A stretch of 64,000 nucleotides of DNA from Lytechinus variegatus (Eukaryota > Echinodermata > Echinoidea > Temnopleuroida > Toxopneustidae): NCBI RefSeq assembly GCF_018143015.1, contig NC_054748.1, positions 19,672,725 to 19,736,724 on the forward strand, read 5' to 3'. The notes below the pieces were generated by a model, which was not told the DNA's origin, did no database searches, and saw only the letters and a list, made by a program, of their open reading frames with translations. This document shows positions 12,963 to 49,302 of this stretch, piece by piece (position 1 is the stretch's first letter; each line of letters begins with the position of its first letter). The position numbers and the translations under genes are program-made.

Positions 12963-14864
12963 TCAGCGGAATATATAGAGTCTATCCCGAGTGCAGAAAG
13001 CGATCTCTCCTGATCGGTACTGCTGGAGGTAATACCAATCTGTCCAAGGCTTCTCAATCTTGTAATCATTAACAAGGTTTCGGATGTGCCTTAGTTCATT
13101 TGTATACTCGTCAATGCTCACCAAATCTTCATGAGGCTTCACCTTGGCTATCAGGATTGTATTCCATTGAGATACAGCAGCGTAAAGGGAACTACCCGGT
13201 TTCTTTAATTCATGTTGTACAGCACCCTGTTTGTCTATCAATCTGATAGCATCCAATGATGAAATGATCAGAGAACCATGGTAACTAGTGATTTGCCGAG
13301 GTCCATACCCGTTGCATGGTATCTCCCTGACTGCTTGCCCACCTGCTGTTGAAAATACCTGGATCTTATTGGCATACATGTAGCTCACATAGATCAGATC
13401 ATCACCAGCAACAGTGAGATCAGGATCCCCACCTTCATCTTTACTCAGAGTCTTAAACATTACATTCAATTGTGTGTACTCTGGTGTGTACAGTGTGATG
13501 TTGTTTGAAGTATTAATCACAACGCATCGACCATCAGAAAGAAACCCTACCCCCGATATTTTAACATCCTTCAGAACTGTCTGCTGAAGCTGACCATCAG
13601 TGGAGAAGATTTTCATGCCACCTGGGCTACATCCTAGTGCCATCCTACCGTCTGGTGTACTAACCATGGTAAGTTTTCTATCCTTATTAGGCAAAGCAAC
13701 CTTCTTTACATTATCAATATTATAAGTAGGCAAAGAAATGTCCTTTTCATCAAAGGTTTTATTAGTGGGTAAGGCGACGTTTCTTTCAGCTACATTCTCA
13801 ATCTTTCCAAGGCCTAGCTCATCCATTCCAACATTTCTCTTGAACCTGACACTTTTCCCCTTTATGCCCGATTTCTTCGGCTGCTCGTAGTCAGGATCCT
13901 TTTGATCAAAGACCTCTCGTAACTCTTCACACAGAGTGCCGTGTGCAGCCAAAGTATCCATATCTAATGGAATCTTTATTTTGTTAGTTACCATTTCAGC
14001 CATGGTCGCCAACCGATTGATGTGCTTCTGGGCCGTGGTCTTCATACTTTCCAGTTCTTTCTTTACTCCTTCGGTCGTTTCCTTGACTTCTCTTACTAGA
14101 CTTTCCCTCTTTACTGTCAACTGCCGGACTGCATCATCATATGCTTTATTAATGTCACTTGTACACTGTTTCTTGGCACTGTCAACACTTTTAGTCTGTT
14201 CATCTATAAAATCAATGTACTTCTGAAAGCATGATTGTTTCTTGTCCACCTTTGATTTAAGTTCTTCGATACCCTTCGTGTGTTTGTCCTCGTAAGCTGT
14301 TCCCTCGATGACCTTGTGTCCTTCCCCCGTATGTTCCATAACAACACACCTGAAGCATGTGAATCTCCTGCAGCTGGAACAGAAGCAACACTCGTCTTCT
14401 TTTGGATGTTTCCTGCATTTCCGGTATTTACGGACTGAAACCGTCCCTGATGAGATCTCACTCATGGCAATGACTTCATGATCGACAAAGCCTTCCCATT
14501 GAGAGTGCTTATTAAGACAAGATGTGCAGAGATACTTGCCACAGTCTTGGCAGTAGACAGCAGCATGGGACTTGTCATTTGATTTACAATTTGTGCAAAT
14601 CTGAGGATGGCCCTCCATATCCTCTATTAGACTTTTCAAAGCAAGATTTACCTGTAGTTTGCCGACATCTTGGTTTGGGACCTGGGTCACAGCTCTGCAG
14701 ACAGGGCATCGGATCTGGCAGTTACCGTGACACTCTAAGAGGTTGTCCAGGCAAGTCTTGCAGAAAGTGTGAGAACAAGACAGGATCTTGGGATCGGTGA
14801 ATGTAGAAAGACACACTGGACACTCTGTACTCTGGGAGATGACAGTCTTTAATGCTTCAGCCAT
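12963..14864 (-). CDS. TRIM-type RING/B-box/coiled-coil/beta-propeller protein, copy 1
   Basis: A 633-residue protein from one uninterrupted coding exon. The RING (C3HC4) uses C15, C18, C30, H32, C35, C38, C53 and C56, which predicts E3 ubiquitin ligase activity. A first B-box covers about 90-131. A second B-box uses C150, H153, C162, C165, C170, C173, H178 and H183. A coiled coil runs about 195-295. A basic linker follows (about 329-345), then a beta-propeller-like domain of six blades from about 393 to 633, similar to NHL/TRIM2-3-type C-termini, with blade words such as PDGRMALGC, SDGRCVVI and DDLIYVSY. The start is the ATG in CAGCCATGG, 18 bases after a conserved splice acceptor at 14883-14884. 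Copies 2-4 differ mainly in the propeller. A role in innate defence or RNA/protein target recognition is inference from the TRIM family; no orthologue name is given. Confidence 0.93.
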   Translation of the reverse strand: MAEALKTVISQSTECPVCLSTFTDPKILSCSHTFCKTCLDNLLECHGNCQIRCPVCRAVTQVPNQDVGKLQVNLALKSLIEDMEGHPQICTNCKSNDKSHAAVYCQDCGKYLCTSCLNKHSQWEGFVDHEVIAMSEISSGTVSVRKYRKCRKHPKEDECCFCSSCRRFTCFRCVVMEHTGEGHKVIEGTAYEDKHTKGIEELKSKVDKKQSCFQKYIDFIDEQTKSVDSAKKQCTSDINKAYDDAVRQLTVKRESLVREVKETTEGVKKELESMKTTAQKHINRLATMAEMVTNKIKIPLDMDTLAAHGTLCEELREVFDQKDPDYEQPKKSGIKGKSVRFKRNVGMDELGLGKIENVAERNVALPTNKTFDEKDISLPTYNIDNVKKVALPNKDRKLTMVSTPDGRMALGCSPGGMKIFSTDGQLQQTVLKDVKISGVGFLSDGRCVVINTSNNITLYTPEYTQLNVMFKTLSKDEGGDPDLTVAGDDLIYVSYMYANKIQVFSTAGGQAVREIPCNGYGPRQITSYHGSLIISSLDAIRLIDKQGAVQHELKKPGSSLYAAVSQWNTILIAKVKPHEDLVSIDEYTNELRHIRNLVNDYKIEKPWTDWYYLQQYRSGEIAFCTRDRLYIFR

Positions 14865-14882
14865 GGCTGGGTTTATAGAAGA

Positions 14883-16253
14883 CTGAAAAATAATTATTAC
14901 AAAACAAGATGAAGAATAATAAACACGTAAGGACCGTAGAATCTGCCATTTGAATACATCACTGAGTAATAAAAGGATCGCGTTGGGTTTTGGAATAGGG
15001 AAAGGAAGGGGAGGAGCAAGGGGAAATTGGGAATGATAAAATGAGGGGGAGAGGAGAAAGGGGAATGGAAAGAGGAGCTTGATACGATGGGAATAAATTG
15101 GGATGGTGAAAGGAAAGGAGTGAAAAGAAAAGAAGAGTATTAGGAATTATATTGCTTTAAAAGGGGTATTATTTTTATAAGTTTATTTCCAATTAGTCTA
15201 ATGCCATTTCGTCCAATTACCAAACTCCTTTACTATTATTTAGTCTAACATAAGCTAATCCACTATCCACATAGTCTAATTGCAATTTCTTTCACTCACC
15301 AGTTTATATAATAACCAGTTGGGCTAATAGCAATTAAGTCTGAAATCTAGTCTAACTGGACTTAGTGTTAATTGGACAAAATAAATTAAAATGAAATGGA
15401 TATTTATTTAGACCAACTGGTTATGAGACGAAATGGTAATAGACGAACTGGTGATTAGACGAAGTGATGATTGGACCAAATGGTTTTTAGACGAAATGTT
15501 TTTTTTCTTAAGTTTTTATTGGGTTTTCATAATTTTGTATAACAAATCACATATAATTAATACGAGTAATTTAAAATATAACAGAATAAACAAATAAGAA
15601 AGGAAAAACAGGCAGCATACACATTATTAGTTTACATTAGAAGAAGTACAGCTTATCAACAGATAATACTTGATAAACACGTAGTAAAAACAGTCACTTT
15701 GTCTCTTCTCATTCCTCATTCCCTATGCTATAGTAAATCAAGAATGTAATAACAGAGGAATAAAATCATTTGATTCACCAATTATGATTATTAAAGATTA
15801 ACAAATTCCATTCTAAAAAGGCATATTAAATTTTCTTCAGTAACAAAAATTGATGTTGATGGACCGAATGGCATTAGACTAAATCAAGGTAGACCATGTG
15901 GTGAGTGGAAGAATTGGGATTAGACGAATAGGTAATTTACCTTCTCATTTTCCCCATTACTTCCGGGTTGGAAAATCAGTCTGATCACCCCTAAACAACG
16001 ATCTTTGTATATATAATTTAATTGTTTCGATCCTGTCTGTTCAAAGATAGTGATGTTACAATTTCTCACTGGAAACAATCGCTTATTATTGAAGAAAAAT
16101 GGCAATCCAGTAATATTAAAGATATAATCATTAAACAAGCCATATCAATCAGTGTGTGATTTCAAATTCGACACGTTTCTGATATGGCATTTGAATGTGT
16201 AAAATATATACAGAATATCTTTGGAAAATACATGAATTATTCAATATACTTAC
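14883..16253 (-). other. Predicted 5'-UTR intron of TRIM copy 1
   Basis: The acceptor TTATTTTTCAG ends at 14883. A donor GTAAGTATATTG begins at 16253. Both sites are conserved at matching places in units 2, 3 and 4 (introns about 1372, 1355 and 1863 bp). The intron contains a TU-like foldback element. Confidence 0.55.
15181..15940. mobile_element. TU-like foldback element in TRIM 1 intron
   Basis: The left arm (15185-15365) is a run of degenerate ~15-bp units with GTCTAAT/GTCCAAT cores. The right arms (15405-15500 and 15860-15940) carry the same units inverted (AGACGAAATGG, GGACCAAATGG). Between them a non-repetitive stretch (15500-15840) begins on the minus strand with AATAAAAACTTAAG and an A-run, which looks like a retroposed 3' end. 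Unit 4 lacks the element at the matching intron position (near 49990). Confidence 0.65.
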
Positions 16254-16317
16254 ATCAAACTGCTTATGTCCATTATAAACGATATGTTTCTCAGTTTGAT
16301 CAAAGCAACAATATTAT
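16254..16317 (-). promoter_or_regulatory. Candidate first exon and core promoter of TRIM copy 1
   Basis: The sequence ends with TTTGAT just before the donor GTAAGT. About 60 bases upstream on the minus strand is CGTATAATATTG, a possible TATA element. Equivalent sequence precedes units 2-4. Transcript data are lacking, so the exon start is a guess. Confidence 0.35.
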
Positions 16318-16579
16318 ACGGGTCTGGTAGTAGCAGTATTAGATATTTTGGCTACATCAATTCATAATGGTGGTGCGTAGTGAATCGTGTGCAAATTTAC
16401 AGTTGTTTACAAATTCTAGTTCAATATCAAACTATTTTTAGTGATTGGGAATTCCCAGTAACCTTTGACATGTTTCAATTGTGCATTCATGTACTTCAAT
16501 TCAGCGTAACGGTTGATTCACGGGTTTTCTTTTTACCTGATTGAAAATAATCGAAATGTTTGTAGTATATTATTGACTT

Positions 16580-17200
16580 GTTTAGAGACAGAAAAAAAGA
16601 ACGGAAAGAAGAAAAGAAAGAAAGAAATGGTAGGGCGGAAAAGGAACATAAGAAGAAAGGATTCAATAAAAATACAAAAAGAAAGAAAGAAAAATAGGAA
16701 AGAATGAATGAAAGAGAGGAGGGAAGAAAAGAAGGGGAAGGAATGAATAAAATAAATAGATAAAGAAAGAAATGAAGTAATAAAGAAAGAAATGAATAAC
16801 GAAAGGAAGGAAGAAAGAAAGGAAAAAGAAAGAAAAGAAGAAGGAAAAAAAATGAATGAAAAAGGAAAGAATGAATGGAACAAAGGGAAAAAGAAAGAAA
16901 AAAATAAAGACAGGAAAAAAGAAAGAAAAAAGGAATAATAAAGAGAAGATGGAAATAACTGAATACAGGAACAATGAGAATATGAAAAAGGAAGAAACAA
17001 AGTAAACATTGAAAAAAAGAAAATAGGATTGGAAAAGAAGAATGACATGAGAAAAAATGGGAAGAACAAAAGATGTAAGAAAAAACGTAATAGTAAAAAA
17101 GGAAGGTGAGAGATAAAAGGAGAAAAGAGGAAAACAATAGGCAAAAAATGGAGGAGGAAATATAAGAAAGAAGAATAGAAGAAGAAAAAAAGAGAAATGA
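16580..17200 (+). repeat. Purine-rich tract, unit 2
   Basis: Counterpart of 6205-7132, shorter by about 300 bp through loss of internal repeats. Same flanking words on both sides. Non-coding despite long minus-strand Phe/Ser-rich frames. Confidence 0.85.
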
Positions 17201-17274
17201 AAAAGCAGAAATTGATCTTACTTGGCTGGAGGCAAATCCTGATTTGACATCTCGTCTTTTCAAGATGGAATTAG

Positions 17275-18220
17275 CAGGGGCGGATCCCAAAAATTTTAAA
17301 TGCGGGGGGGGGGCGTAACCCGCACCAAAGGTACGTCTTGTCAGGGGGATCTAGCTGGGGGCCCTCCCCAAGAAAATTTTGTAAAAAGTAAGCCCCTCAT
17401 GGTATGCGATTTCAGCGTTCTGAGGTCAGTCACTCTATAAGAAAATTTTCGAGTTCATAAGTAAAAGGGCGTTATGATATAAAGTTGCCGTTAGAGGCTT
17501 GGTGACTGAAATCGAAAAATAAGATTGTGGTACGCATTAATCAATGTAGATATGGTAGAGTAGGCGTGACTTACCAAGTCTTCTTCTTTACATCGTATGC
17601 ATACTGTCAACCAATGAAATATTCCAACGCAGTAAATCCAATATAGACATGTCATATATGATGTCACTAATTCAAAAAAAAATGCTTTCAGTGATGAGTA
17701 AGTTGTGTTTGTATATCAGCTAAAACGCGTCTGGTATAGCGTAGTTTGCCTTCATGTGAACCAACTGAATGCGGTCCCGTTGCGGGTAGGGCTGTGGGAT
17801 TGGACCTGGCGATACGAGGTCGTTAATTAAACATGGGTATGATACCTCATTCTTCTGTTTTAAACGTTTCTTTCTACTTAAAAAGGACACATTTTTCTAC
17901 AGGTTGCCCCAAAATAGGGGGCTTGGGCTAGCTGCCCCCCCCCCCCCCCCCTGTTCACGACCAAAAAATTAGTAGGAACATGTGCCACGGGCGAGACAAA
18001 AAAAAAACGGGGGCTTAATTGGAGCGGGTTTATTGTAAAAAGGAGGGTCCTCGGAGCAGGCTTCAGAACCACAAATATTTGTGAAAACGGGGGTCCTTGG
18101 AACGGGTCGCCTGCGTGTGAGTGCGTATGCATCCCTATGGAACGTGCATGCAGCTAGCCCGGTGGCAGGGGCTTGCGCAGAGGCAATTATGTTCGGACAG
18201 CGCTCTACGACCGCTTTTCA
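17275..18220. mobile_element. hAT-like element remnant, unit 2
   Basis: The left end CAGGGGCGGATCCC is intact. The right end was removed by the deletion at 18220. The empty site for the 184-bp TIR element lies inside at 18122-18132. Confidence 0.5.
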
Positions 18221-18504
18221 AGAAACAGATACTAAAGAGAGAGAGAGGGAGATGATAAAAGAAGAAAAGATGGGAAAAAAAGAAAGCAAATAATTATGTT
18301 CCTCCTTCTCCCTGACGCACCTGATTAGGTCATTCTCACAATCATTTCACAGACACTTTCTATAACACAGAGAATATTTTGACAATAGCTATTCATAACA
18401 AAACAGTCTTTGTCGAAAATCGGTGAATCAAATCAACAGTGTCGTCCTGGATTCTATAAAGGCAAACGACACATGAGTTATATTTCGTCAGGTCCGAGTC
18501 TTAA

Positions 18505-19090
18505 AGGACAAGTCCACCCCAACAAAACTTGATTTGAATAAAAAGAGAAAAATTAAACAAGCATAACACTAAAAAATTTTTAAAAAACGGATGTAAAATA
18601 AGAAAGTTATGGCATTTCAAAATTTCGCTTCATTTCACAAAAACAGTTAGCTACATCAAAATGAGAGAGTCGATGATGTCATTCTCTCACTTTTTCTTTT
18701 GTATTTTATCATATGAAATATTTTTATTTTCTCGTCATTGTCATGTGAAATGAAGTTTCATTTCTCCCTGATCACGTGGAATTCCATTATTTTAATATTT
18801 TGTGCTTCAGGCAAGGAGGTCCTAATCGTCAAATTCATAAAAATTGAAATATTGTATAATTCAAACAATAAAAAACAAAAGAAATAGTGAGTGAATGAGT
18901 AACATCATCGACCCTCTTATTTGGATGTAACTGGCTCGTGCATATAACTATTTTGTTAAAAATAAGGGAAATTTTGAAATGTCATAACATTCTTATTTTA
19001 CATCCAATTTTGATGAAATTTTCAGCATTGTTTTTGTCTGATTTTTCTTTATTGATTCAAATCAACATTTCTCTGAGGTGGACTTGACCT
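18505..19090. mobile_element. 586-bp TTAA-flanked MITE (Kolobok-like), unit 2 only
   Basis: Ends AAGGACAAGTCCACC and GGTGGACTTGACCTT form the TIR, flanked by TTAA at 18501-18504 and 19091-19094. Units 1 (9547-9550) and 3 (33637-33640) keep a single TTAA in CGAGTCTTAAGACGATG, so insertion and target duplication are read directly. TTAA targets with AGG ends fit Kolobok-type; piggyBac also uses TTAA. No coding capacity. Confidence 0.9.
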
Positions 19091-20660
19091 TTAAGACGAT
19101 GTAGACGATGTAGGCCAACTGTCACGGTCCACCAACTTTCGACAATGACCTCTAGTCTGTAATTTGACAGGCATTTTCAATAGATTCCTAAGGTTCCAGA
19201 AAGCGTTTCCTCCTTTCCATATTCATCTATTGAAAATTCTCCATCCTTCTTTCCTTCATTCCTTCTTCTTCCCTTTATTTTGTTTATATATGTCTTCCTT
19301 TCCTTCTATCTTTCTCCCTATTTTGTTCTATTTTTTTCTGAACAAGTCAATACTATACCAGTGACATACAGATTACTATTTTTTAAAACTTTTATTGATT
19401 AATCAACTATATACGAAGAATTTGTCTTCTCGTCATCAAAGTATTTTGTTTCATTAAATCGCTAAAAGAAAAAAAACAATAACAGTAATAATATCAGTCA
19501 AATTACAGCAAATATGAATTATAATATTCTGTTATTATCATATTACTACTCTTTTACAGATTTTGAAATTGCCTTTCCTTTATTTTCTTTACAACGTTAA
19601 CATTATAATGTTTGGTTTCAAACATTTTAAGAAAATTTCTAAAAGTTATTATTTATATTATGATCAAATTGATGATCAAATCGTTTATAGTTCCTGAAAA
19701 TGAAGAGCATAATTGATTTTACCTTTTAATAAACTCATTCTACTTGTAAGCTTGACATATCGTATTGTAGAACTGTATAGTGTGAACTTGGTTCTTAAAT
19801 ACTTACATGTTATTATATTTATACATTTGCACATCATTGTTCTCGATCATATTTGTGCAAATATAAACAATTGCATTCACTGTGATCATACTTTCCTTCT
19901 CAATTGTATAATTAATTAATGACGTTTTCTCTTCATTCTGGATATACTGCATGATTCTTGATGAAGGAGAATTTCTGCTAAAATAAGTATACCTGTAGAC
20001 AATACAATTAATTATGATATTACAGTTTCATTACAGTTTTTTCCAAGGTAATAGCAAGTCATATCTGACGTGTTCTTCTATCGAATTGAATCCTTTTTAA
20101 AAGGCAAAATCCGAAGCAGAAATTTGAAATTATATTATTGAATGATTTTCCAAACTTAGATAGAATGTAACAATTTGATTGAGTTATACATGTATTGTTC
20201 TTTCCTTAAGATTTTTACGACCACGGGGAAAAGAAGAAAATGAATGAAGCTAAAAGGCTGAACATATCATTGTCTGAATATTATGTCGAGACCTATCACA
20301 AAATTAGATGTTTGCACTGTTTTGCTAGCTCCCGGCTTTTTAGGAATTTTGTCCCCTCGAAAATTTTATTTTCGCTCCATTTGATTTTGTTTATTTTTAC
20401 AAAGATATAATATATGCAAAACAATATATAAATATAGATTTAATATAGTTATGGACCAATAAAAAATTCTTCAGACCTCTATGGATGGCAAATATCGACA
20501 TCCATTGACTCATTATATACAACTGCGCTTTTACTGTACATTTCGTGCCATTGCCTGAAATACAATAAGCTATCCTCCATGTTCTCCGTAAAGCTATTCA
20601 ATTTCACATTCGAGTTATTCCATATAATTGCTTTTTCAAATTAAATTTATTCGAATATAT

Positions 20661-23302: not shown

Positions 23303-25234
23303 TCAGCGGAATATATAGAGTCTATCCCCAGTGCAGAAAGCGATCTCTCCTGATCGGTACTGCTGGAGGTAACACCAATCATGCCTAAATAACTTAATAG
23401 GCCAAAATTGCTCAGGCTTCTCAATCTCGTAATCATTAACAAGGTTTCGAATGTGCCTTAGTTCATTTGTATACTCGTCAATACTCACCAAATCTTCACC
23501 ATGCTTCACCTTGGCTATCAGGATTGTATTCCATTGAGATACAGCAGCGTAAAGGAGACTACCCGGTTTCGTTAATTCATGTTGTACAGCACCCTGTTTG
23601 TCTATCAATCTGATAGCATCCAATGATGAAATGATCAGAGAACCATGGTAACTAGTGATTTGATATGGTTCATACCCGTTGCATGGTATCTCCCTGACTG
23701 CTTGCCCACCTGCTGATGAAAATACCTGGATCTTATTGGCTTTCCTGTAGCTCACATAGATCAGATCATCACCATCAACAGTGAGACGAGGAATCCCGCC
23801 TTCATATTCACTCAGAGTCTTAAACATTACATTCAATTGTGTGTACTCTGGTGTGTACAGTGTAATGTTGTTTGAAGTATCAATCACAACACATCGACCA
23901 TCAGAAAGAAACCCTACCCCCGATATTTTAACATCCTTCAGAACTGTCTCCTGAAGCTGACCATCAGTGGAGAAGATTTTCATGCCACCTGGGCTACATC
24001 CTAGTGCCATCCTACCGTCTGGTGTACCAACCATGGTACTAATGATATCTTGAGCTGGCAAAGCAACCTTCTTTACATTATCAATATTATAAGTAGGCAA
24101 AGAAACGTCCTTTTCATTAAATGTTTTATTAGTGGGTAAGGCGACGTTTCTTTCAACTACATTAACAATCTTTCCAAGGCCTAGCTCATCCGCTCCAACA
24201 TTTCTCTTGAACCTGACACTTTTCCCCTTTCTGCCCGATTTCTTCGGCTGCTCGTAGTCAGGATCCTTTTGATCAAAGACCTCTCGTAACTCTTCACACA
24301 GAGTGTCGTGTGCAGCCAAAGTATCCATATCTAATGGAATCTTTATTTTGTTAGTTACCATTTCAGCCATGGTCGTCAACTGATTGATGTACTTCTTAGC
24401 CGTTGTCTTCATGCTTTCCAGTTCTTTCTCTACTCCTTCAGTCGTTTCCTTGACTTCTTTTAGCAGGCTTTCTCTCTTCTCTGTCAAGTGCCGGACCGCA
24501 TCATCATATGCTTTGTTGATGTCACTTGTACACTGTTTCTTAGCATTGTCAACACTCTTCCTCTGCTCATCAATGAAATCAATGTACTTCTGAAAGCATG
24601 ACTGTTGCTTGTCAACCTTTGATTTCAGGTCTTCGATGTTCTTCACGTGTTTATCCTCATAAGCAGCTCCCTCGACGACCTGGTGTCCCTCGACGTCTTT
24701 ATGTTCCATCATACTGCATCTGAAGCATGTGAATCTCCTGCAGGTGGAACAGAAGTAATCCTCGTCTTCTTTTGGGTGTTTCCTGCATTTCCGGTATCTA
24801 CGTACAGACACCTTTCCTGATGAGATCTCACTCATGGCAATGACTTCATGATCGATAAAGCCTTCCCATTGAGAGTGCTTATTAAGACAAGATGTGCAGA
24901 GATACTTGCCACAGTCTTGGCAGTAGACAACAGCATGGGGCTTGTCATTTGATTTACAATTTGTGCAAATCTGAGGATGGCCCTCCATATCCTCTATTAG
25001 ACTTTTCAAAGCAAGATTTACCTGTAGTCTGTCGACATCTTCGTTTGGGACCTGGGTCACAGCTCTGCAGACAGGGCATCGGATCTGGCAGTTACCGTGA
25101 CACTCTAAGAGGTTGTCCAGGCAAGTCTTGCAGAAAGTGTGGGAACAAGACAGGATCTTGGGATCGGTGAATGTAGAAAGACACACTGGACACTCTGTAC
25201 TCTGGGAGATGACAGTCTTTAATGCTTCAGCCAT
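23303..25234 (-). CDS. TRIM-type RING/B-box/coiled-coil/beta-propeller protein, copy 2
   Basis: A 643-residue protein in one coding exon, intact. RING (C15-C56), first B-box and second B-box (CRKHPKEDEDYFCSTC...) are complete, with two extra differences around the last B-box histidines (EHKDVEGH). The coiled coil differs from copies 1, 3 and 4 at many sites (for example QRKSVDNAKK, HLTEKRESLLKE), so this is the most distinct N-terminal half of the set. The propeller is longest here because of a larger loop before the last blade (EQFWPIKLFRHDWCY). The acceptor TTACTTTTCAG lies 18-21 bases before the ATG, with the exon starting at 25252. Predicted E3 ligase; target unknown. Confidence 0.93.
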   Translation of the reverse strand: MAEALKTVISQSTECPVCLSTFTDPKILSCSHTFCKTCLDNLLECHGNCQIRCPVCRAVTQVPNEDVDRLQVNLALKSLIEDMEGHPQICTNCKSNDKPHAVVYCQDCGKYLCTSCLNKHSQWEGFIDHEVIAMSEISSGKVSVRRYRKCRKHPKEDEDYFCSTCRRFTCFRCSMMEHKDVEGHQVVEGAAYEDKHVKNIEDLKSKVDKQQSCFQKYIDFIDEQRKSVDNAKKQCTSDINKAYDDAVRHLTEKRESLLKEVKETTEGVEKELESMKTTAKKYINQLTTMAEMVTNKIKIPLDMDTLAAHDTLCEELREVFDQKDPDYEQPKKSGRKGKSVRFKRNVGADELGLGKIVNVVERNVALPTNKTFNEKDVSLPTYNIDNVKKVALPAQDIISTMVGTPDGRMALGCSPGGMKIFSTDGQLQETVLKDVKISGVGFLSDGRCVVIDTSNNITLYTPEYTQLNVMFKTLSEYEGGIPRLTVDGDDLIYVSYRKANKIQVFSSAGGQAVREIPCNGYEPYQITSYHGSLIISSLDAIRLIDKQGAVQHELTKPGSLLYAAVSQWNTILIAKVKHGEDLVSIDEYTNELRHIRNLVNDYEIEKPEQFWPIKLFRHDWCYLQQYRSGEIAFCTGDRLYIFR

Positions 25235-26954: not shown

Positions 26955-27645
26955 AGAGAGAAAAAAAAGAAAAGAACGAAAAGAAGAAAAGAAAGAAAAA
27001 AATGGTAGGACGGAAAAGGAACATAAGAAGAAAGGAAGAAAGGATTCAATAAAAAACAAAAAAGAAAGACAGAAAAAGAAGGAAAGAATGAATGAAAGAG
27101 AGGAGGGGAGAAAATATAAAAGAAAAGGGAAGGAATTAATAACGTGAATAGATAGAGAAAGAAAGAAATGAAGTAATAAAGAAAGAAATGAATAACGAAA
27201 GGAAGGAAGAAAGAAAGGAAAAAGAAAGAAAAGGAAAAGGAAAAAATGAATGAAAAAGGAAAGAATGAAAGGAACAAAGGGAAAAAGGAAGAAAGAAAGA
27301 AAGAAAGAAAAAAAAGAAAGAAAAAAAAAGAAAGAAAAAAAAGAAAGAAAGACAGGAACAAACAAAGAAAAAAGAAGAAAGGAATAATAAAGAGAAGATG
27401 GAAATAAGAAAATACAGGAACAATGAGATTATGAAAAAGGAAGAAACAAAGTAAACATTGAAAAAAAGAAAATAGGATTGGAAAAGAAGAATGACATGAG
27501 AAAAATGGGAAGAACAAAAGATGTAAGAAAAAACGTAATAGTTAAAAAGGGAAGGTGAGAGATAAAAGGAGAAAAGAGGAAAACAATAGGCAAAAGATGG
27601 AGGAGGAAATATAAGAAAGAAGAATAGAAGAAGAAAAGAGAAATG
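26955..27645 (+). repeat. Purine-rich tract, unit 3
   Basis: Counterpart of 6205-7132, with an AAAG-rich core at 27290-27355. Non-coding. Confidence 0.85.
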
Positions 27646-36827: not shown

Positions 36828-38729
36828 TCAGCGGAATATATAGAGTCTATCCTCAGTGCAGAAAGCGATCTCTCCTGATCGGTACTGCTGGAGGTAACAC
36901 CAATATATCCCTGACTTCTCAATCTTGAAATCATTAACAAGGTTTCGAATGTGTCTTAGTTCATTTGTATACTCGTCAATACTCACCAAACCTTCATCAT
37001 GCTTCACCTTGGCTATCAGGATTGTATTCCATTGAGATACAGCAGCGCAAAGGAAACTACCCGGTTTCTTTAATTTATGTTGTACAGCACCCTGTTTGTC
37101 TATTAATCTGATAGTATCAGATGATTTAGTGATCAGAGAACCATGGTAACTAGTGATTTGATATGGTACATACCCGTTGCATGGTATCTCCCTGACTGCT
37201 TGCCCACCTGCTGTTGAAAATACCTGGATCTTCTTGGCTTTCCTGTAGCTCACATAGATCAGATCATCACCATCAACAGTGAGATCAGAAATCCCACCTT
37301 CATCTTTACTCAGAGTCTTAAACATTACATTCAATTGTGTGTACTCTGGTGTGTACAGTGTAATGTTGTTTGAAGTATCAATCACAACACATCGACCATC
37401 AGAAAGAAACCCTACCCCCGATATTTTAACATCCTTCAGAACTGTCTGCTGAAGCTGACCATCAGTGGAGAAGATTTTCATGCCACCTGGGTTACATCCT
37501 ACTGCCATCCTACCGTCTGGTGTGCCAACCATGGTATTAATGCTACCCTTAGCTGTCAAGGCCACGTTCTTTACATTATCAATATCATAAGTAGGCAAAG
37601 AAACGTCCTTTTCATTAAATGTTTTATTAGTGGGTAAGGCGACGTTTCTTTCAACTACATTCACAATCTTTCCAAGGCCTAGCTCACCCATTCCAACATT
37701 TCTCTTGAACATGACACTTTTCCCCTTTATGCCCGATTTCTTCGGCTGCTCGTAGTCAGGATCCTTTTGATCAAAGACCTCTCGTAACTCTTCACACAGA
37801 GTGTCGTGTGCAGCCAAAGTATCCATATCTAATGGAATCTTTATTTTGTTAGTTACCATTTCAGCCATGGTCGCCAACCGATTGATGTGCTTCTGGGCCG
37901 TGGTCTTCATACTTTCCAGTTCTTTCTTTACTCCTTCGGTCGTTTCCTTGACTTCTCTTACTAGACTTTCCCTCTTTACTGTCAACTGCCGGACTGCATC
38001 ATCATATGCTTTATTAATGTCACTTGTACACTGTTTCTTGGCGCTGTCAACACTTTTAGTCTGTTCATCTATAAAATCAATGTACTTCTGAAAGCATGAT
38101 TGTTTCTTGTCCACCTCTGATTTCAGTTCTTCCATACCCTTCGTGTGTTTGTCCTCGTAAGCTGTTCCCTCGATGACCTTGTGTCCTTCCCCCGTATGTT
38201 CCATAACAACACACCTGAAGCATGTGAATCTCCTGCAGCTGGAACAGAAGCAACACTCGTCTTCTTTTGGATGTTTCCTGCATTTCCGGTATTTACGGAC
38301 TGAAACCTTCCCTGATGAGATCTCACTCATGGCAATGTCTTCATGATCGATAAAGCCTTTCCATTGAGAGTGCGTATTAAGACAAGAGGTGCAGAGATAG
38401 TTGCCACAGTCTTGGCAGTAGACAGCAACATAGAAATTGTCATTTGATTTACAATTTGTGCAAATATGAGGATGGCCCTCCATATCCTCTATCAGACTCT
38501 TCAAAGCAAGATTTACCTGTAGTTTGCCGACATCTTAGTTTGGGACCTGGGTCACAGCTCTGCAGACAGGGCATCGGATCTGGCAGTTACCGTGACACTC
38601 TAAGAGGTTGACCAGGCAAGTCTTGCAGAAAGTGTGAGAACAAGACAGGATCTTGGGATCGGTGAATGTAGAAAGACATACTGGACACTCTGTACTCTGG
38701 GTGATGACAGTCTTTAATGCTTCAGCCAT
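36828..38729 (-). pseudogene. TRIM copy 3 with a stop at codon 65
   Basis: The frame matches the other copies over all 634 codons, but codon 65, CAA (Gln) in copies 1 and 4, is TAA here (38535-38537). The product would end after the RING, as a 64-residue RING-only peptide. The rest (second B-box C/H ligands, coiled coil identical or nearly so to copies 1 and 4, propeller) stays open, so the stop is recent. The splice acceptor before the ATG is kept (exon starts at 38747). About 45 bases upstream of the candidate first exon a LINE and an SCYL2 fragment have been placed, which probably removed its promoter. A short RING-only product or restart at an internal Met is possible but not indicated. 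Confidence 0.85.
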
Positions 38730-40213: not shown

Positions 40214-40261
40214 CTGACAACACACACATAATATATACAATGCATAAAAATAATTTCTAAA

Positions 40262-41317: not shown

Positions 41318-41607
41318 TGATCGAAGCAATAGTATTATACAGGGTCTAATAGCAGCAGTATTATATATTTTGGCTACATCAATTCATCATAATGGTGGTG
41401 CGTAGTGAATCGTGTGCAAATTTACACTTGTTTACGAATTCTAGTTCAATATCAAACTATTTTTAGTGATTGGGAATTCCCAGTAACCTTTGACATGTTT
41501 CAGTTGTGCATTCATGTACTTCAATTCAGCGTAACGGTTGATTCACGGGTTTTCTTTTTACCTGATTGAAAATAATCGAAATGTTTGAAGTATATTATTG
41601 ACTTGTT

Positions 41608-41934
41608 TAGAGACAAAAAAAAGAAAAGAACGAAAAGAAGAAAAGAAAGAAAAAATGGTAGGACGGAAAAGGAACATAAGAAGAAAGGAAGAAAGGATTC
41701 AATAAAAATACAAAAAGAAAGAAAGAAAAAGAAGGAAAGAATGAATGAAAGAGAGGAGGGAAGAAAAAATAAAAGAAAAGGGAAGGAATTAATAAAATGA
41801 ATAGATAGAGAAAGAAAGAAATGAAGTAATAAAGAAAGAAATGAATAACGAAAGGAAGGAAGAAAGAAAAAAGAAAGAAAAGGAGAAGGAAAAAATGAAT
41901 GAAAAAGGAAAGAATGAAAGGAACAAAGGGAAAA

Positions 41935-41992
<58 letters not shown>

Positions 41993-42300
41993 AAAAAAGG
42001 AAAGAATGAAAGGAACAAAGAAAGAAAAAAGGAATAATAAAGAGAAGATGGAAATAAGAAAATACAGGAACAATGAGATTATGAAAAAGGAAGAAACAAA
42101 GTCATTATTGAAAAAAGAAAATAGGATTGGAAAAGAAGAATGACATGAGAAAAAAGGGAAGAACAAAAGATGTAAGAAAAAACGTAATAGTTAAAAAGGG
42201 AAGGTGAGAGATAAAAGGAGAAAAGAGGAAAACAATAGGCAAAAAATGGAGGAGGAAATATAAGAAAGAAGAATAGAAGAAGAAAAAAAAAGAGAAATGA
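41608..42300 (+). repeat. Purine-rich tract, unit 4
   Basis: Counterpart of 6205-7132. A perfect (GAAA)n run occupies about 41937-41992. Non-coding. Confidence 0.85.
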
Positions 42301-42376
42301 AAAAGCAGAAATATTGATCTTACTTTGCTGGAGGCAAATCCTGATTTGACATCTCGTCTTTTCAAGATGGAATTAG

Positions 42377-43579
42377 CAGGGGCGGATCCCAAAAATTTTA
42401 AATGCGGGGGGGGGGGGCGTAACCCGCACCAAAGGTACGTCTTGTCGGGGGGATCTAGCTGGGGTCCTCCCCAAGAAAATTTTGTAAAAATTAAGCCCCC
42501 TCATGGTATGCGATTTCAGCGTTCTGAGGTCAGTCACTCTATAAGAAAATTTTCGAGTTCATAAGTAAAAGGGCGTTATGATATAAAGTTGCCGCTAGAG
42601 GCTTGGTGACTGAAATAGAAAAATAAGATTGTGGTACGCATTTATCAATGCAGATATGGTAGAGTAGGCGTGATTTACCAAGTCTTCTTCTTTACATCGT
42701 ATGCATACTGTCAACCAATGAAATGTTCCAACGCAGTAAATCCAATATAGACATGTCATATATGATGTCACTACTTCTAAAAAAAACACGCTTTCAGTGA
42801 TGAGTAAGTTGTTTTTGTATATCAGCAAAAACGTGTCCGGTAGCGTAGTTTGCCTTCATATGAACCAACTGAATGCGGTCCCATTGCGGGTATAGGCCTG
42901 TGGGGTCGGACCGGTCGTTACGAGGTCGTAAGTTAAACATGGGTATGATACCTCATTCTTCTGTTTTAAACGTTTCTCTCTACTTAAAAAGGACACCCTT
43001 TTTCTACATGTTGCCCCAAAATAGGGGGCTCGGGCTGACTGACCCACCCCCATTATCGACCAAAAAAGTAGTAGGAACAGTAGGAATATGTGCCGCGGGC
43101 GAGACAAATAACAGGGGCTTAATTTGAGCGGGTTTATTGTAAAAAGGAGGGTCCTCGGAGCAGGCTTCAGAACCACAAATATTTGTAAAAACGGGGGTCC
43201 TTGGTCGCCTGCGTGTGAGTGCGTATGCAAATCCCTATGGAACGTGTATGCAGGTAGCCCGGTGGCAGGGTCTTGCGCAGAGGCAATGTTCGGACAGCGC
43301 TCTGCGACCGCTTTTCATCAAAATTGCCGCTCATTGTAGCAGATCAACGCGACTGGAACGGCACAACGGAAACATGCGAAGCTTTTGGAACAGATTTCTT
43401 TCTTCTTTTTTGTCGATGATAAAATGCTATGCTTTGGAGGGGCTTTCTTTGTTCTTTTTCTCAATAAGACAAAATGCTATGCCTCGGAACGGAAATTTGA
43501 GTGTAAAAATGGGGGTCGCGGGACATACCCACTATGAGTGCCCCCGGGCTTGGCACCCCCCCCCTTGGATTCACCCCTG
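42377..43579. mobile_element. hAT-like element, unit 4
   Basis: Left end CAGGGGCGGATCCC, right end CCCCTTGGATTCACCCCTG. The two ends are clearer inverses here than in unit 1. No insertions inside. Confidence 0.6.
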
Positions 43580-43761
43580 ATTAACTGATGACTACAACAT
43601 ATATCAAATCTCTAAAAGGGGGAGATACTCCAGAATTGAAATAAAATGATTGGAACAAATAATAATAAGGGAAAATTTGACAAAGAACATACTGGAAATC
43701 TCATCAAAAACGTAAAAGAAAAAACAACGTTATGACATGTTAGATTATGCAGTATTTCGGT

Positions 43762-44347
43762 CAGTGGCGTAACTACGGTGGGGGGCACGTGCCCCCCCCC
43801 CCACCATCGGCTGACAAAGAAAAATCAAGCAAACTGGGAAAAGGAGAAAAAGAGGGAGAAGGAAGAGAAACGTAGTAGGAAAGAAGAAATTATTATTCAT
43901 TATAATGTTATATCATATTGTAATCGTGTTATGTTACATTACATAATAAACATTCTATCATAACTTTATTAAACATGATTTGCTTAGGGCCTATGTCTTC
44001 AGTGTTCCTGGTGCTAGCATTGTCTGTTTAGCGAGATATATAATCCTGTTGTACTAAAACCTCCCGTTTTCAAGTCAATATACACCAAATATATTTCCTC
44101 GCACTTCGAGTTATTGTTTTATGTAGTGACATATGCTTCTTTTTCATGACTAGTTAAAGTGATTGCCCATATTAAGGTCTTAATATTAAACATTTTCTGT
44201 CCGTGATTACGTTCGCATTAGTGGATTGGTCTGCTCTCCATGCATGAATTCCTAAAATCAGTCCTTAAAATGTCCCCTTTTCTGATCTGAATATCAAAAA
44301 TTTTCGGCTCGCGCTGTGGTCTTAGTGAATTCCTACAAGCATGCTCT
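43762..44347. mobile_element. Replacement segment with hAT-type left end
   Basis: It begins CAGTGGCGTAACTACGG plus a G-run, a common hAT-type terminus. It runs to GCATGCTCTAAA, where unit sequence resumes. No matching right end is seen, so the element was cut by a deletion that removed unit sequence equivalent to 8792-9922. Confidence 0.5.
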
Positions 44348-45345
44348 AAAAAACAATAACTGTAATAATATCAGCCAAATTACAGCAAATATGAATTATG
44401 ATATTCTGTTATTATTATATTACTACTCTTTTACAGATTTTGAAATTGCATTTCCTTTATTCACTTTTCAACGTTTACATTATAATGTTTGGTTTCGTAC
44501 ATTTTAAGAAAATTTCTAAAAGTTATTATGTATACTATGATAAAATTGATGATCAAATCTTTTATAGTTCCTGAAAATGAAGAGCACAATTGATTTTACC
44601 TTTTAATAAACTCATTCTACTTGTAAACTCGACATATCGTATTGTAGAGCTGTATATTGTGAACTTGGTTCTTAAATACTAACATGTTATTTTATTTATG
44701 CATATGCACATAATTGTTCTCGATCATATTTGTGCAAATATAAACAATTGCATTCATAGTGATCATACTTTCCTTCTCAATTGAATAATTAATTAATGAC
44801 GTTTTCTCTTCATTCTGGATATACTGCATGATTCTTGATGAAAGAGAATTTTTGCTAAAAATAAGTATATCTGTAGACTATAAATTAATTATGATATTAC
44901 AGTTTCATTTTTTCCCACGATAATAGCAGGTCATATCTGACGTGATCTTCTATCGAATTGAATCCTTTTTTAAAAGGCAAAATCCGAAGCAGAAATTTGA
45001 AATTATATTATTGAATGATTTTCAAAACTTAGATAGAATGTAACAATTTGATTGAGTTATGTTCTTTCCTCAAGATTTTTACGACCACGGGGAAAAGAAG
45101 AAAAGTAAATGAAACTAAAAGGCTGAACATATCATTGTCTGAATATTATGTCGAAATCTATCACAAAATTAGATGTTTGCACCGTTTTGCTAGCTCCCAG
45201 CTTTTTAGGAATTTTGCCTCCTCAAAAAATTTCTTTTCGCTCCATTTGATTTCTTTTATTTTTTACAAAGTTATAATATATGCAAAACAATATATAAATA
45301 TAGATTTAATATAGTTATGGACCAATAAAAAGTTCTTCAGACCTC

Positions 45346-47345
45346 TATGGATGGCAAATATCGACATCAATTAACTCATTACAACTGCGCTTTTACTGTA
45401 CATTTCGTGCCATTGCCTGAAATACAATAACAAATTCTTCGTTTAAGCTATTTCATTTCACATTCGAGTTATTCCATATAATTGCATTTTCAAATTAAAT
45501 TTCTTCGAATTTATCGAAGTCACATCGGTTCTATATCAAATACAGGTAAAAAAAATACACAGTATAAGCATGTTCTATAACGGAGAACGTTGTTTCACTT
45601 CCTTTCTGCCTGATCAATGCATACAAAATACCTATTACAAAAACATACATGCATACATAGTACAGCATACCAACTTTAAAATGAATGGTAAATATTACAC
45701 TTCCACCATGGTTATTACTAGTTAAATATGAAGTATATGTTTAGAAATAGAAATTATTTGATTTCTCATGATATATCTAATAACATTATGTCTAAAATAC
45801 AAGAACTAGAAATTTCCCCACACAGGATAAACATAATGAAGATGATGCTTGATGATAGCAAAGTTCCAAATAAAAATTGAGATCCATTGACGTTGCTTTT
45901 TATGCATTTTATGCTATTTTCTTAAATGCCGGCAATATTTGTTTGTTTTGTTTCACATTCAAGTTATCATATATAATTGCATTTTAAAATTGAAGCACTT
46001 CAAAAAAATATGAAAGAGCAGGAATCAGACCAATTCCATGAAGATGATATTTATATATTTACACAGTGTAACATGCCTTGATAGAATGATAGCATAGAAT
46101 AACGACATATACATGCATAAAATCATAAACAGTACACAGCAAAAGCTGTGGTGTTAACCGGTGTACATAGAGGACCACACCAGTTATTTTAAACCGGTTT
46201 AAAATGGTGTTATTACAACATCTTTTGTTGTCACAGTTACACTCTTTGGTGTTATGTTTAATCTCGAGGGTGTGATTTTAACACCTCAGGGTGTGGTCTC
46301 TAGTAACACCAATTGGTGTCAGTTTTAACACCGCAGTGTTTACAGTGTATAGCATACACTAATTAATATCAATGGTAAATATCACATTGCCACGATAGTC
46401 ATTGCTAGACAAGTATTATATACATGACATATTTGAAGAGAGAAACATTTGGTTTCCCATAAAATATGTGTTTCAAGTTGTAGTTGGGTTGTTAAATGGT
46501 TTTACTTGACTCGAACATCAGAGAGGAGTTAGAGATTTCTTACAGGCAGAAAGGGGGTACTTTATTACTTAGCAAGAGTGCGCCCTCTAGTTGAATAAAC
46601 ATTATAGGTTATCAGTTGAACAAATCACATAAACAGGATACTGTTACAATATGTATATTTAACATCATGTCTTATATTTAAGCACGAGAAATTCCCTCAC
46701 ATAGGGTACACATGATAAAGATGATGCTTGATATTAAGTGGAAAGCTGAAACTAAAAATTGAGATTCAATGACTATATGCTGTTTTATGCATTTTTCGTG
46801 CAATTTTCATAAATGAAATAAGTTTTTTAAGTGTTTCACACTCCGAAAAATATCGAAGAGTGATGATCAGACCATCTCCATGAAGATGATTATTTTTATA
46901 TTCACACGTTATAATAATGTCTTGATTCACAGCATACATGTAGATATCTTTCAATTTATGAAAACCTATAGTATACGCGCATAAACAGTAAACTCTTTTA
47001 ATATCAATGATCTCACCACCCATCATGCCCATGCTGGCATATTACTAGTCAAATATTATATACAGTCATGAATATGAATAGAGAATCATATGGTTTGTCA
47101 TAAACATTTAACAACAATTTGTCTGATATGCAAGTACTAGAATTTCCCCCACACAGAGGATAAACATGATAAATATGATGGTTGGTACATGCAAAATTGA
47201 AAACAAATAGTTGTAAGAAGCGAAATGCTCTTTATGGGTAAGAAATCCAGAAAGAAATGATCCAACAATTGTTTTATGTATTTTTACATTATAGCAGCTT
47301 ACTTTTAGCAGAAAATGGCAACTCGGTGGGTATCACTCCCCCCCC
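45346..47345. repeat. Degenerate threefold tandem repeat 3' of TRIM gene 4
   Basis: Counterpart of 10915-12905, close to the unit 1 version. Confidence 0.6.
46135..46347. mobile_element. TA-flanked MITE, unit 4
   Basis: Same insertion as 11706-11918. Confidence 0.85.
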
Positions 47346-47391
47346 CCCATCTTCTGCGATAATAATTATGATATCATGTCATCAATTATTT

Positions 47392-49302
47392 TCAGCGGAA
47401 TATATGCAGTCTATCCCGAGTGTAGAAAGCGATCTCTCCTGATCGGTACTGCTGGAGGTTACACCAAACATGCCAAAATATCACAGTGTTCTCAATCTTG
47501 TAATCATTAACAAGGTTTCGAATGTGTCTTAGTTCATTTGTATACTCGTCAATGCTCACCAAATCTTCACCATCGTTCACCTTGGCTATCAGGATTGTAT
47601 TCCATTGAGATACAGCAGCGTAAAGGTGGCTACCCGGTTTCTTTAATTTATGTTGTACAGCACCCTGTTTGTCTATCAATCTGATAGCATCCAATGATGA
47701 AATGATCAGAGAACCATGGTAACTAGTGATTTGCCGAGGTACATACCCGTTGCATGGTATCTCCCTGACTGCTTGCCCACCTGCTGTTGAAAATACCTGG
47801 ATCTTCTTGGCTTTCATGTAGCTCACATAGATCACATCATCATCATCAACAGTGAGATCAGAATCCCCACCTTCAACTCGACTTAGAGTCGTAAACACTA
47901 CATTCAATTGTGTGTACTCTGGTGTGTACAGTGTGATGTTGTTTGAAGTATCAATCACAACGCATCGACCATCAGAAAGAAACCCTACCCCCGATATTTT
48001 AACATCCTTCAGAACTGTCTGCTGACGCTGACCATCAGAAGAGAAGATATTCATGCCACCTCTATGACATCCTACTGCCATCCTACCGTCTGGTGTACCA
48101 ACCATGGTATACATGCTATATTGAGCTGGCAAAGCAACCTTCTTTACATTATCAATATTATAAGTAGGCAAAGAAACGTCCTTTTCATCAAAGGTTTTAT
48201 TAGTGGGTAAGGCAACCTTCCTTTCAACTACATTCACAATCTTTCCAAGGCCTAGCTCACCCATTCCAACATTTCTCTTGAACATGACACTTTTCCCCTT
48301 TATGCCCGATTTCTTCGGCTGCTCGTAGTCAGGATCCTTTTGATCAAAGACGTCTCGTAACTCTTCACACAGAGTGTCGTGTGCAGCCAAAGTATCCATA
48401 TCTAATGGAATCTTTATTTTGTTAGTTACCATTTCAGCCATGGTCGCCAACCGATTGATGTGCTTCTGGGCCGTGGTCTTCATACTTTCCAGTTCTTTCT
48501 TTACTCCTTCGGTCGTTTCCTTGACTTCTCTTACTAGACTTTTCCTCTTTACTGTCAACTGCCGGACTGCATCATCATATGCTTTATTAATGTCACTTGT
48601 ACACTGTTTCTTGGCACTGTCAACACTTTTAGTCTGTTCATCTATAAAATCAATGTACTTCTGAAAGCATGATTGTTTCTTGTCCACCTTTGATTTAAGT
48701 TCTTCGATACCCTTCGTGTGTTTGTCCTCGTAAGCTGTTCCCTCGATGACCTTGTGTCCTTCCCCCGTATGTTCCATAACAACACACCTGAAGCATGTGA
48801 ATCTCCTGCAGCTGGAACAGAAGCAACCCTCGTCTTCTTTTGGATGTTTCCTGCATTTCCGGTATTTACGGACTGAAACCTTCCCTGATGAGATCTCACT
48901 CATGGCAATGACTTCATGATCGATAAAGCCTTCCCATTGAGAGTGCTTATTAAGACAAGTGGTGCAGAGATAGTTGCCACAGTCTTGGCAGTAGACAGCA
49001 GCATAGGATTTGTCATTTGATTTACAATTTGTGCAAATCTGAGGATGGCCCTCCATATCCTCTATCAGACTCTTCAAAGCAAGATTTACCTGTAGTTTGC
49101 CGACATCTTGGTTTGGGACCTGGGTCACAGCTCTGCAGACAGGGCATCGGATCTGGCAGTTACCGTGACACTCTAAGAGGTTGTCCAGGCAAGTCTTGCA
49201 GAAAGTGTGAGAACAAGACAGGATCTTGGGATAGGTGAATGTAGAAAGACACAATGGACACTCTGTACTCTGGGAGATGACAGTCTTTAATGATTCAGCC
49301 AT
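47392..49302 (-). CDS. TRIM-type RING/B-box/coiled-coil/beta-propeller protein, copy 4
   Basis: A 636-residue protein in one intact coding exon. All RING and B-box metal ligands are kept; small N-terminal changes are AES for AEA at the start, PLC for PVC and TYPK for TDPK in the RING. Coiled coil nearly identical to copies 1 and 3. The propeller carries private changes: AQYSMYT before blade 1, CHRGGMN in its hairpin, SRVEGGDSD before blade 3, GSHLY before blade 5 and NTVIFWHVW before the last blade. The ATG at 49302 follows acceptor TTATTTTTCAG with the exon starting at 49320. Predicted E3 ligase; target unknown. Confidence 0.93.
   Translation of the reverse strand: MAESLKTVISQSTECPLCLSTFTYPKILSCSHTFCKTCLDNLLECHGNCQIRCPVCRAVTQVPNQDVGKLQVNLALKSLIEDMEGHPQICTNCKSNDKSYAAVYCQDCGNYLCTTCLNKHSQWEGFIDHEVIAMSEISSGKVSVRKYRKCRKHPKEDEGCFCSSCRRFTCFRCVVMEHTGEGHKVIEGTAYEDKHTKGIEELKSKVDKKQSCFQKYIDFIDEQTKSVDSAKKQCTSDINKAYDDAVRQLTVKRKSLVREVKETTEGVKKELESMKTTAQKHINRLATMAEMVTNKIKIPLDMDTLAAHDTLCEELRDVFDQKDPDYEQPKKSGIKGKSVMFKRNVGMGELGLGKIVNVVERKVALPTNKTFDEKDVSLPTYNIDNVKKVALPAQYSMYTMVGTPDGRMAVGCHRGGMNIFSSDGQRQQTVLKDVKISGVGFLSDGRCVVIDTSNNITLYTPEYTQLNVVFTTLSRVEGGDSDLTVDDDDVIYVSYMKAKKIQVFSTAGGQAVREIPCNGYVPRQITSYHGSLIISSLDAIRLIDKQGAVQHKLKKPGSHLYAAVSQWNTILIAKVNDGEDLVSIDEYTNELRHIRNLVNDYKIENTVIFWHVWCNLQQYRSGEIAFYTRDRLHIFR

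Follow-up and report, generated by a model that had tools for sequence, protein, structure and literature searches.

The TRIM-NHL proteins Brat, Mei-P26, Thin, LIN41/TRIM71, TRIM2 and TRIM3, which join the TRIM architecture to a six-bladed NHL propeller, are conserved and mostly encoded by single genes. Their known ligand side is the top surface of the propeller (PMC9634614, PMC9070667; here and below, statements from cited papers refer to the available part of each text). RNA is bound by the positively charged top surface of NHL domains (PMC9070667), and in known complexes those portions of the connecting loops that differ in structure make no direct contact with it (PMC9634614). The latter source also ascribes an NHL-like domain to TRIM56. 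In finTRIM, the fish TRIMs with a B30.2 domain, and in primate TRIM5alpha, the ligases have expanded and their N-terminal arm is conserved, loops of the C-terminal recognition domain are positively selected and copies recombine (PMC2657112). In the sea urchin S. purpuratus 140 genes are annotated as TRIM, and genes which that paper labels TRIM45, TRIM71, TRIM33 and TRIM56 were induced in coelomocytes after UVB; its available text deals with counts and expression and holds nothing on face-specific selection (PMC13043383).

We analysed a window of 64,000 nucleotides from Lytechinus variegatus, i.e. the whole stretch of DNA under study, for which a preliminary description had claimed four TRIM paralogues. 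These are real genes, all on the minus strand and one of them with a stop (Table 1), and every sequence segment quoted in that description was found in c1 to c4. At least one Pfam RING model scored above cut-off in each of c1 (RING at residues 14-57), c2 and c4. The c3 frame submitted to Pfam begins downstream of its stop, so the RING was absent from this query. Two zf-B_box stretches were present per copy, above cut-off in c1, c2 and c4 and slightly under it in c3 (22.4 versus 24.1). The phmmer matches of c1 in the PDB were TRIM3, TIF1-beta and TRIM2; residues 15-289 aligned with TIF1-beta RBCC structures.

Table 1. Positions of the TRIM copies and their features in the window; loop remarks give variable positions, and numbers of different residues, among 15 home-cluster copies.
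Feature	Position	Strand	Remark
TRIM copy c1	12963-14864	-	single open coding exon: RING, two B-boxes, helical region, NHL-type propeller
TRIM copy c2	23303-25234	-	longest pre-blade-6 loop among the four
TRIM copy c3	36828-38729	-	open except in-frame TAA at codon 65 (38535-38537, 3' of RING)
TRIM copy c4	47392-49302	-	5' flank differs from c1-c3, no alignment beyond ~30-40 bp upstream of ATG
c1 propeller	12966..13709	-	six blades, closed by N-terminal strand (velcro); AlphaFold2 prediction
c1 loop DA1, before blade 1	13680..13694	-	4/5 vary
c1 loop BC1	13620..13625	-	2/2 vary
c1 loop DA2, before blade 2	13560..13574	-	2/5 vary; 0 among four window copies
c1 loop BC2	13500..13511	-	2/4 vary
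c1 loop DA3, before blade 3	13425..13454	-	6/10 vary
c1 loop BC3	13368..13379	-	3/4 vary
c1 loop DA4, before blade 4	13296..13316	-	4/7 vary; 6 residues at 521
c1 loop BC4	13251..13259	-	3/3 vary
c1 loop DA5, before blade 5	13191..13202	-	4/4 vary; 7 residues at 559, directly after the loop
c1 loop BC5	13125..13139	-	4/5 vary
c1 loop DA6, before blade 6	13035..13061	-	8/9 vary, length too; 8 residues at 608
c1 loop BC6	12984..12992	-	3/3 vary
c2 codons 150-300	24335..24787	-	common to locus L017 (3/450 nt differ), distant from c1, c3, c4
c1 3' flank	12263..12962	-	deep split c1,c4 vs c2,c3; further mosaic boundary

Pfam NHL was not listed at E values up to 1 in any of the four copies, and a profile search of PDB sequences with the propeller had no match better than E = 0.27. 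AlphaFold2 models of c1 and c2 (n = 2) both predicted a six-bladed NHL-type propeller, with a pLDDT of 80.0 and a pTM of 0.79 for c1. They were built from four-sequence alignments and the best of five was kept per run, the scores ranging from 80.0 to 41.3 for c1 and from 81.3 to 60.2 for c2. The closest solved folds were NHL structures, which ranked first and several of which are RNA-bound; identity to the 16 best of them was 10-18%. Thus we base its placement in TRIM-NHL on the predicted fold and on the domain architecture of the protein rather than on the Pfam NHL model. Top and bottom faces were read from strand order in the models, not from atomic coordinates, and the D-A and B-C loops so defined make up the top-face set. 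An initial loop set, picked after variability had been seen, was replaced by these model-derived loops.

A search of one genome (869,567,369 bases in 33 contigs) yielded at least 70 related loci, 18 of which form the home cluster of the window at 19.02-19.79 Mb, in both orientations on one 38.5-Mb contig. We read these 18, 14 loci of the C9 28-Mb cluster, 12 of C14 and 9 of 18 of C2; nine C2 loci, four other C9 loci and all loci of C8, C10, C12 and C18 lie outside this sample. Stops or truncation broke 3 of the 18 home-cluster copies (c3, L009, L022), which were excluded from the selection counts together with L027 and L046. Nine Cys/His of the RING region were conserved, except for C15, the first RING Cys, which is lost in L018, and for C45 in L037, L041 and L045.

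Variable sites lay mainly on one face of both predicted propellers, as the preliminary description had expected of a predicted structure. Among the four window copies 25 of 61 top but only 3 of 53 bottom loop positions varied with loops taken from the c1 model (p = 6.5e-6), and 27 of 69 against 3 of 47 with those of c2 (p = 3.8e-5). The 15 intact home-cluster copies varied at 45/61 top and 10/53 bottom positions (p = 3e-9), and 25 of the 26 positions with at least four residues were on the top side. When the top label was shifted circularly, the observed count was reached by 3 of 246 shifts (1, 3 and 246) for four copies and by 0 of 246 for 15; the summed number of distinct residues among the latter was 168, versus 165 for the best shift. 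All six blades contributed. The loops before the first strand do vary as described, but not these alone, since the B-C loops of the same face vary too. Blade 2 was nearly, yet not fully, invariant: alignment columns 452 and 470 hold two replacements among the window copies, and residue 437 of c1, in its first strand, showed six residues among 15 copies.

Codon models of the 15 copies that fitted a separate synonymous rate to the loops and permitted multi-nucleotide changes gave an omega of 2.06-2.57 for the top loops of the home cluster, which places dN/dS in the variable loops, the check proposed earlier, above 1. The synonymous rate of the loops was not raised (0.97-1.10 relative to the rest, p 0.73-1.0). 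When the test was calibrated with 80 null simulations, the observed 2dlnL was reached twice and the observed omega never. When only the four window copies were used and the synonymous rate of the loops was free, the data did not reject omega = 1 and did not distinguish selection from a raised loop rate; the wider family separated the two for the home cluster. From RING to coiled coil pN/pS was 0.31 and pS, at 0.113, did not fall below that of the propeller, so the constancy of this region indicates purifying selection. Positive selection was not detected in the RBCC of the four window copies. Taken together, selection on the top face of the home cluster is well supported, and the proposal of a constant ligase arm with a diversifying recognition face is supported there by omega, face bias and the purifying selection on the arm.

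Site models M1a and M2a gave a 2dlnL of 35.2, on a textbook reading p = 2e-8. This p-value was set aside, as 100 simulations under a null that included recombination as well as multi-nucleotide changes gave the statistic a 95% quantile of 22.6 and a maximum of 32.5.

The family copies are mosaics. The near-constancy from RING to coiled coil described for c1, c3 and c4 holds; codons ~150-300 of c2 stem from another lineage, and dS in the c2 coiled coil was 0.32.

The other clusters differed. C9 28-Mb showed the face bias of the home cluster, but its omega was not clearly above 1 (about 1 for the top loops, 0.92-1.20, five copies, not significant; pN/pS 1.17 with 13 copies, P 0.21). No top bias was found among the variable loop positions of C14 (12 copies; 28/61 vs 23/53, p = 0.47) or C2 (8 of 9 fetched copies; 29/61 vs 24/53, p = 0.48), and omega of their top loops was under 1 (0.54-0.91). 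The loop synonymous rate of C14 was raised (1.62-1.76, p 0.02-0.03).

We favor, with a probability of about 0.63, the interpretation that these genes are a large set of tandem TRIM-NHL-type E3 ligases in which positive selection diversifies the top face as a recognition surface. RING, B-boxes and coiled coil would together serve as a conserved arm for catalysis and dimerisation. The top face of the six-bladed propeller, to which every blade contributes its D-A and B-C loops, would bind targets, which the RING may then ubiquitinate. Positive selection would continually alter top-face residues, the bottom face and the bulk of the core, like the ligase arm, would be kept by purifying selection, and tandem duplication with exchange among copies would re-pair arms with propellers. 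Defence may be the cause of the diversification and microbial molecules its ligands; the selective pressure would then come from pathogens, most probably viruses or other microbes that live inside cells. Counting against this interpretation are the results for C14 and C2, the omega of about 1 in C9 28-Mb, the two null simulations that reached the observed 2dlnL, the four-copy result and the lack of direct RNA contact of the differing loop parts in known complexes (PMC9634614). A tentative extension, to which we give somewhat less than even odds, is a germline repertoire in an animal that lacks antibodies: dozens of E3s with different binding faces would catch molecules of intracellular pathogens, each pairing a near-uniform arm, handed among copies by gene conversion, with its own top face of twelve variable loops.

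Drift after duplication in top loops that are merely tolerant, with no selection for change, would also yield variable loops. Loops are permissive in general, and the omega below 1 in C14 and C2 and the three broken home-cluster copies agree with such relaxed constraint. In the home cluster, however, it is already disfavoured by an omega above 2 at a synonymous rate equal to the rest, and as so few bottom loop positions vary compared with the top, loop looseness per se is no explanation; overall we regard it as quite unlikely. In place of selection on new amino acids, the diversity could have been brought in from diverged paralogues by short tracts of gene conversion, or could stem from a locally raised mutation rate. 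The mosaic genes, the many codons that differ at two or three bases and the nearly equal fit of a raised overall loop rate with omega = 1 to the four copies speak for this. Yet the loop synonymous rate was not raised with 15 copies, a separate tract would be needed for each of the six D-A loops and for the B-C loops, with the strands between them spared, and conversion may spread variants but does not push omega above 1. Such an origin appears decidedly improbable.

A developmental or RNA-regulatory family like Brat, Mei-P26 and LIN41, whose top face tracks many RNA targets, would fit the RNA-bound NHL domains among the closest solved folds and the binding of RNA by a positive top surface (PMC9070667). 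By a crude count without electrostatics, 9 of the 15 copies had top loops with a positive net charge, and the bottom loops were net negative in 15/15. The top-loop charge was not fixed, however, but ran from -5 to +6 (mean about +1.3), being zero in 4/15 and negative in 2/15, and to our knowledge tandem arrays of dozens of genes under positive selection are rare among developmental regulators. We consider this role unlikely. As urchin heterozygosity of ~3-5% (PMC11310861) is near the flank divergence among copies (1-6% over many stretches), some adjacent copies might be two haplotypes of one gene assembled in tandem. This is very improbable: the 18 loci occupy one contig in both orientations, the closest long match of c1 within the window, at 96.5%, lies two copies off in c4, and even if the variants were allelic they would point to selection on that face.

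Sea urchins are not known to have any immunity other than innate. Diversified TRIM recognition has already been described for B30.2, and a diversifying propeller face would be the same logic on a beta propeller. Because the most variable residues are known by position and lie on one face, the proposal is in a directly testable form. Should the ligands be of microbial origin, echinoderm immunity would gain a large class of candidate receptors inside cells, and the propeller would be shown to be a naturally diversifiable binding scaffold. A literature search, with most subscription papers outside its reach, found no report of such propeller-face diversification.

Among known systems, the SpTransformer (185/333) genes of the purple sea urchin resemble the present family as a clustered immune family of mosaic copies with dN/dS above 1 in some pairs. 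They differ as two-exon genes for anti-pathogen proteins made from sequence elements, and neither a ligase nor a propeller is described in the available text (PMC8634487). With the named TRIM-NHL proteins the urchin genes share the TRIM architecture and, by prediction, the six-bladed propeller, but they number at least 70 loci in one genome, are too far from the Pfam NHL model to be matched, and carry a diverse top face of changing charge. Expansion, conservation of the N-terminal arm and recombining copies are traits that they share with the TRIM ligases finTRIM and TRIM5alpha; the likeness in positive selection on C-terminal loops applies to the home cluster only, not to C14 and C2. In contrast to these, the diversified domain is a predicted NHL-type propeller without B30.2 (PRY-SPRY), the variable surface uses loops from six blades, not chiefly one loop, and the RBCC of the four copies had no selected sites, whereas finTRIM has a few near the RING (PMC2657112, available part). 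Thus the urchin family works like the finTRIM/TRIM5-type TRIMs but is no member of them.

Variation among the four TRIM copies of the window (c1 to c4) is concentrated in the loops on one side of the propeller, and their alignment agreed with the preliminary description apart from the corrections made here. With strands and loops (top: D-A and B-C) taken from the c1 model, 25 of 61 top-loop positions varied, compared with 3/53 in bottom loops and 28/133 in strands; the c2 model gave 27/69, 3/47 and 29/140, and its strand residues varied at 20/65 in the top half vs 5/65 in the bottom half. Only 3 of 246 circular shifts of the top label equalled the observed count (shifts 1, 3 and 246). The 15 intact copies of the home cluster, a set that leaves out c3, L009 and L022, showed the same bias in loops (45/61 top vs 10/53 bottom, p=3e-9) and strand halves (31/61 vs 14/61). 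Columns with at least four residues numbered 26: top loops held 19 of them, top strand halves 6 and bottom loops a single one. No circular shift (0/246) matched the top-loop variability, and the distinct residues there summed to 168 vs 165 at the best shift. All six blades contribute, blade 2 among them. Top faces differ among all 15 copies, and so do bottom faces; the contrast between the faces is thus one of degree.

In the home cluster the top loops had a pN/pS ratio of 1.85 (bootstrap P(pN<=pS)=0.009), compared with 1.17 in top strand halves, 0.48 in bottom loops, 0.37 in bottom strand halves and 0.31 in the arm of RING, B-boxes and coiled coil (RBCC). The codon models used permit two- and three-base changes within a codon and leave the synonymous rate of the loops free; this rate came to 0.97-1.10 times that of the rest. 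Top-loop omega was 2.06 with one tree, 2.57 with per-blade trees and 2.36 with the RBCC tree; omega=1 was rejected with p=0.0019, 0.00018 and 0.00014, respectively, the first value being calibrated by simulation and the other two uncalibrated. In these null simulations (top omega 1, twelve local trees) 2 of 80 runs reached the one-tree statistic and 0 of 80 the observed omega. For the four copies, a multi-nucleotide-aware M1a/M2a statistic was 11.9 (null maximum 7.3, 100 simulations), but on these copies alone a fixed-class test that left the loop rate free did not reject omega=1.

The arm had been described as near-constant in c1, c3 and c4, and this held. The B-box to coiled-coil part of c2 differs because its codons ~150-300 stem from a different lineage: in the coiled coil, dS between c2 and each of the others is 0.32, and among these at most 0.03. 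RBCC pS (0.113) is no lower than that of the propeller; thus the arm is kept constant on average by purifying selection and not by fresh homogenisation. Exchange is evident from several comparisons. Informative sites along the gene support all three groupings of c1-c4; over the ~700 bases of 3' flank next to the gene, every one except a single site groups c1,c4 vs c2,c3. The copies are mosaics. PHI was significant in five of five tests (home cluster whole coding region, RBCC and propeller; C14 and C2 whole coding region; 0/1000 permutations each). L010 and L014, ~450 kb apart, differ at 1/975 nt in RBCC and 49/735 in the propeller, which clearly marks an exchange of the arm; between c2 and L017 the differences are 3/450 nt in the helical segment and 48/741 in the propeller. 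Because the home cluster holds together in trees of either part (support 0.999 for RBCC, 0.844 for the propeller), the observed exchange is within the cluster.

The window (C9:19672725-19736724) is part of a genome of 869.6 Mb that holds at least 70 related loci, a lower bound from 116 matches grouped by position by hand, with 70 of 508 first-look candidates scored. Besides the window copies we read the home cluster's 14 others, the full C9 28-Mb set of 14 (6 by region and 8 as pieces of the propeller), the 12 of C14 and half (9 of 18) of those on C2. The C9 28-Mb cluster showed the loop bias in 5 copies (40/61 top vs 12/53 bottom) and in 13 (51/61 vs 22/53, p=2.8e-6; without L027, whose frame after the arm enters a low-complexity Pro/Asn/Tyr/Thr-rich stretch with stops). 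The bias was absent from C14 (28/61 vs 23/53, p=0.47) and from 8 C2 copies (29/61 vs 24/53, p=0.48), though in C2 the ends of strands are biased to the top (p=0.022). Among the four clusters, face bias of loops thus shows in the two on C9. Top-loop omega was not significantly above 1 in the C9 28-Mb cluster (5 copies, 0.92-1.20), C14 (0.54-0.89) or C2 (0.79-0.91); in C14, where the loop synonymous rate is raised, it was significantly below 1 with free loop rate (p 0.0089 and 0.032). The lone C18 relative is a possible outgroup or founder-like gene.

Features of the window and related loci in the genome
Feature	Location	Strand	Remarks
Open frame	2615-3601	-	NLLDFLG end, which we take to resemble the C terminus of SCYL2; frame unmatched in Pfam
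AAAG-type long purine-rich tracts	6118-7326, 16496-17290, 27178-27397, 41714-42031	+	between gene copies
TRIM c1	12963-14864	-	single open coding exon
TRIM c2	23303-25234	-	single open coding exon
TRIM c3	36828-38729	-	single coding exon, one in-frame TAA at codon 65
TRIM c4	47392-49302	-	single open coding exon
46-base tandem repeat	51737-52416	+	14.8 copies, 97% alike, within 276-codon open frame on the + strand
Non-LTR retroelement pieces	54739-57564	-	endonuclease-like and reverse transcriptase matches, three open stretches
tRNA-Arg	62805-62879	-	anticodon tct
Home cluster	C9 19.02-19.79 Mb		18 loci
C9 28-Mb cluster	C9 28.70-28.96 Mb		14 loci
Further C9 loci	C9		4 loci
C14 cluster	C14		12 loci
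C2 cluster	C2		18 loci
Lone loci	C8, C10, C12, C18		one each
Lone C18 relative	G000:C18:12621314-12623158		40-44% identity to c1, among most distant matches

Within the window c1-c4 stand in tandem. Each has a RING and two B-boxes, then a long helical region, and its C-terminal domain was not matched by Pfam NHL. The c3 stop (38535-38537) directly follows the RING, with the remainder of the frame open, and represents a recent loss, a polymorphism or a sequence error. In every copy a TTTTCAG stands 18 bases ahead of the start codon, which would fit a 3' splice site preceded by an untranslated exon. Upstream, c1-c3 have 1.4 kb or more in common. Homology of c4 to this region ends 30-40 bases before the ATG (49303-49345), close to where the splice acceptor is presumed to lie; c4 may therefore use a separate promoter and a first exon of its own. 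Yet 50938-51434 in its otherwise unaligned upstream region is ~75% like parts of those of c1 and c2. The AAAG-type tracts are possibly unstable sequence linked to duplication.

Twenty-six Cys/His residues kept in >85% of 44 copies (exceptions L018, L020, L037, L041 and L045), together with the constraint on RBCC, point to a ligase that probably works and dimerises. L018, whose propeller is open, may be ligase-dead: the first cysteine of its RING (C15Y) and one B-box histidine (H178Y) are replaced by tyrosine. The propeller top, the usual ligand side of NHL domains, would be the ligand-binding face here. Net top-loop charge ranges from -5 to +6 among the 15 home copies (positive in 9), while bottom loops are negative in all 15. 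Selected diversity and changing charge of the top face would fit many different ligands, nucleic acids being possible ones. The likeliest cause, by analogy with finTRIM and TRIM5, would be recognition of changing intracellular pathogens; for those two, pathogen recognition has been inferred as the driver (PMC2657112). In purple sea urchin coelomocytes TRIM-labelled genes, possible relatives of the present ones, are induced under UVB (PMC13043383).

Our literature search found no account of a tandem ligase family in which selection is concentrated on a single face of the propeller. The window TRIM family shares its predicted fold with TRIM-NHL proteins, and would resemble the diversifying B30.2 TRIMs in its working while, unlike them, lacking B30.2.
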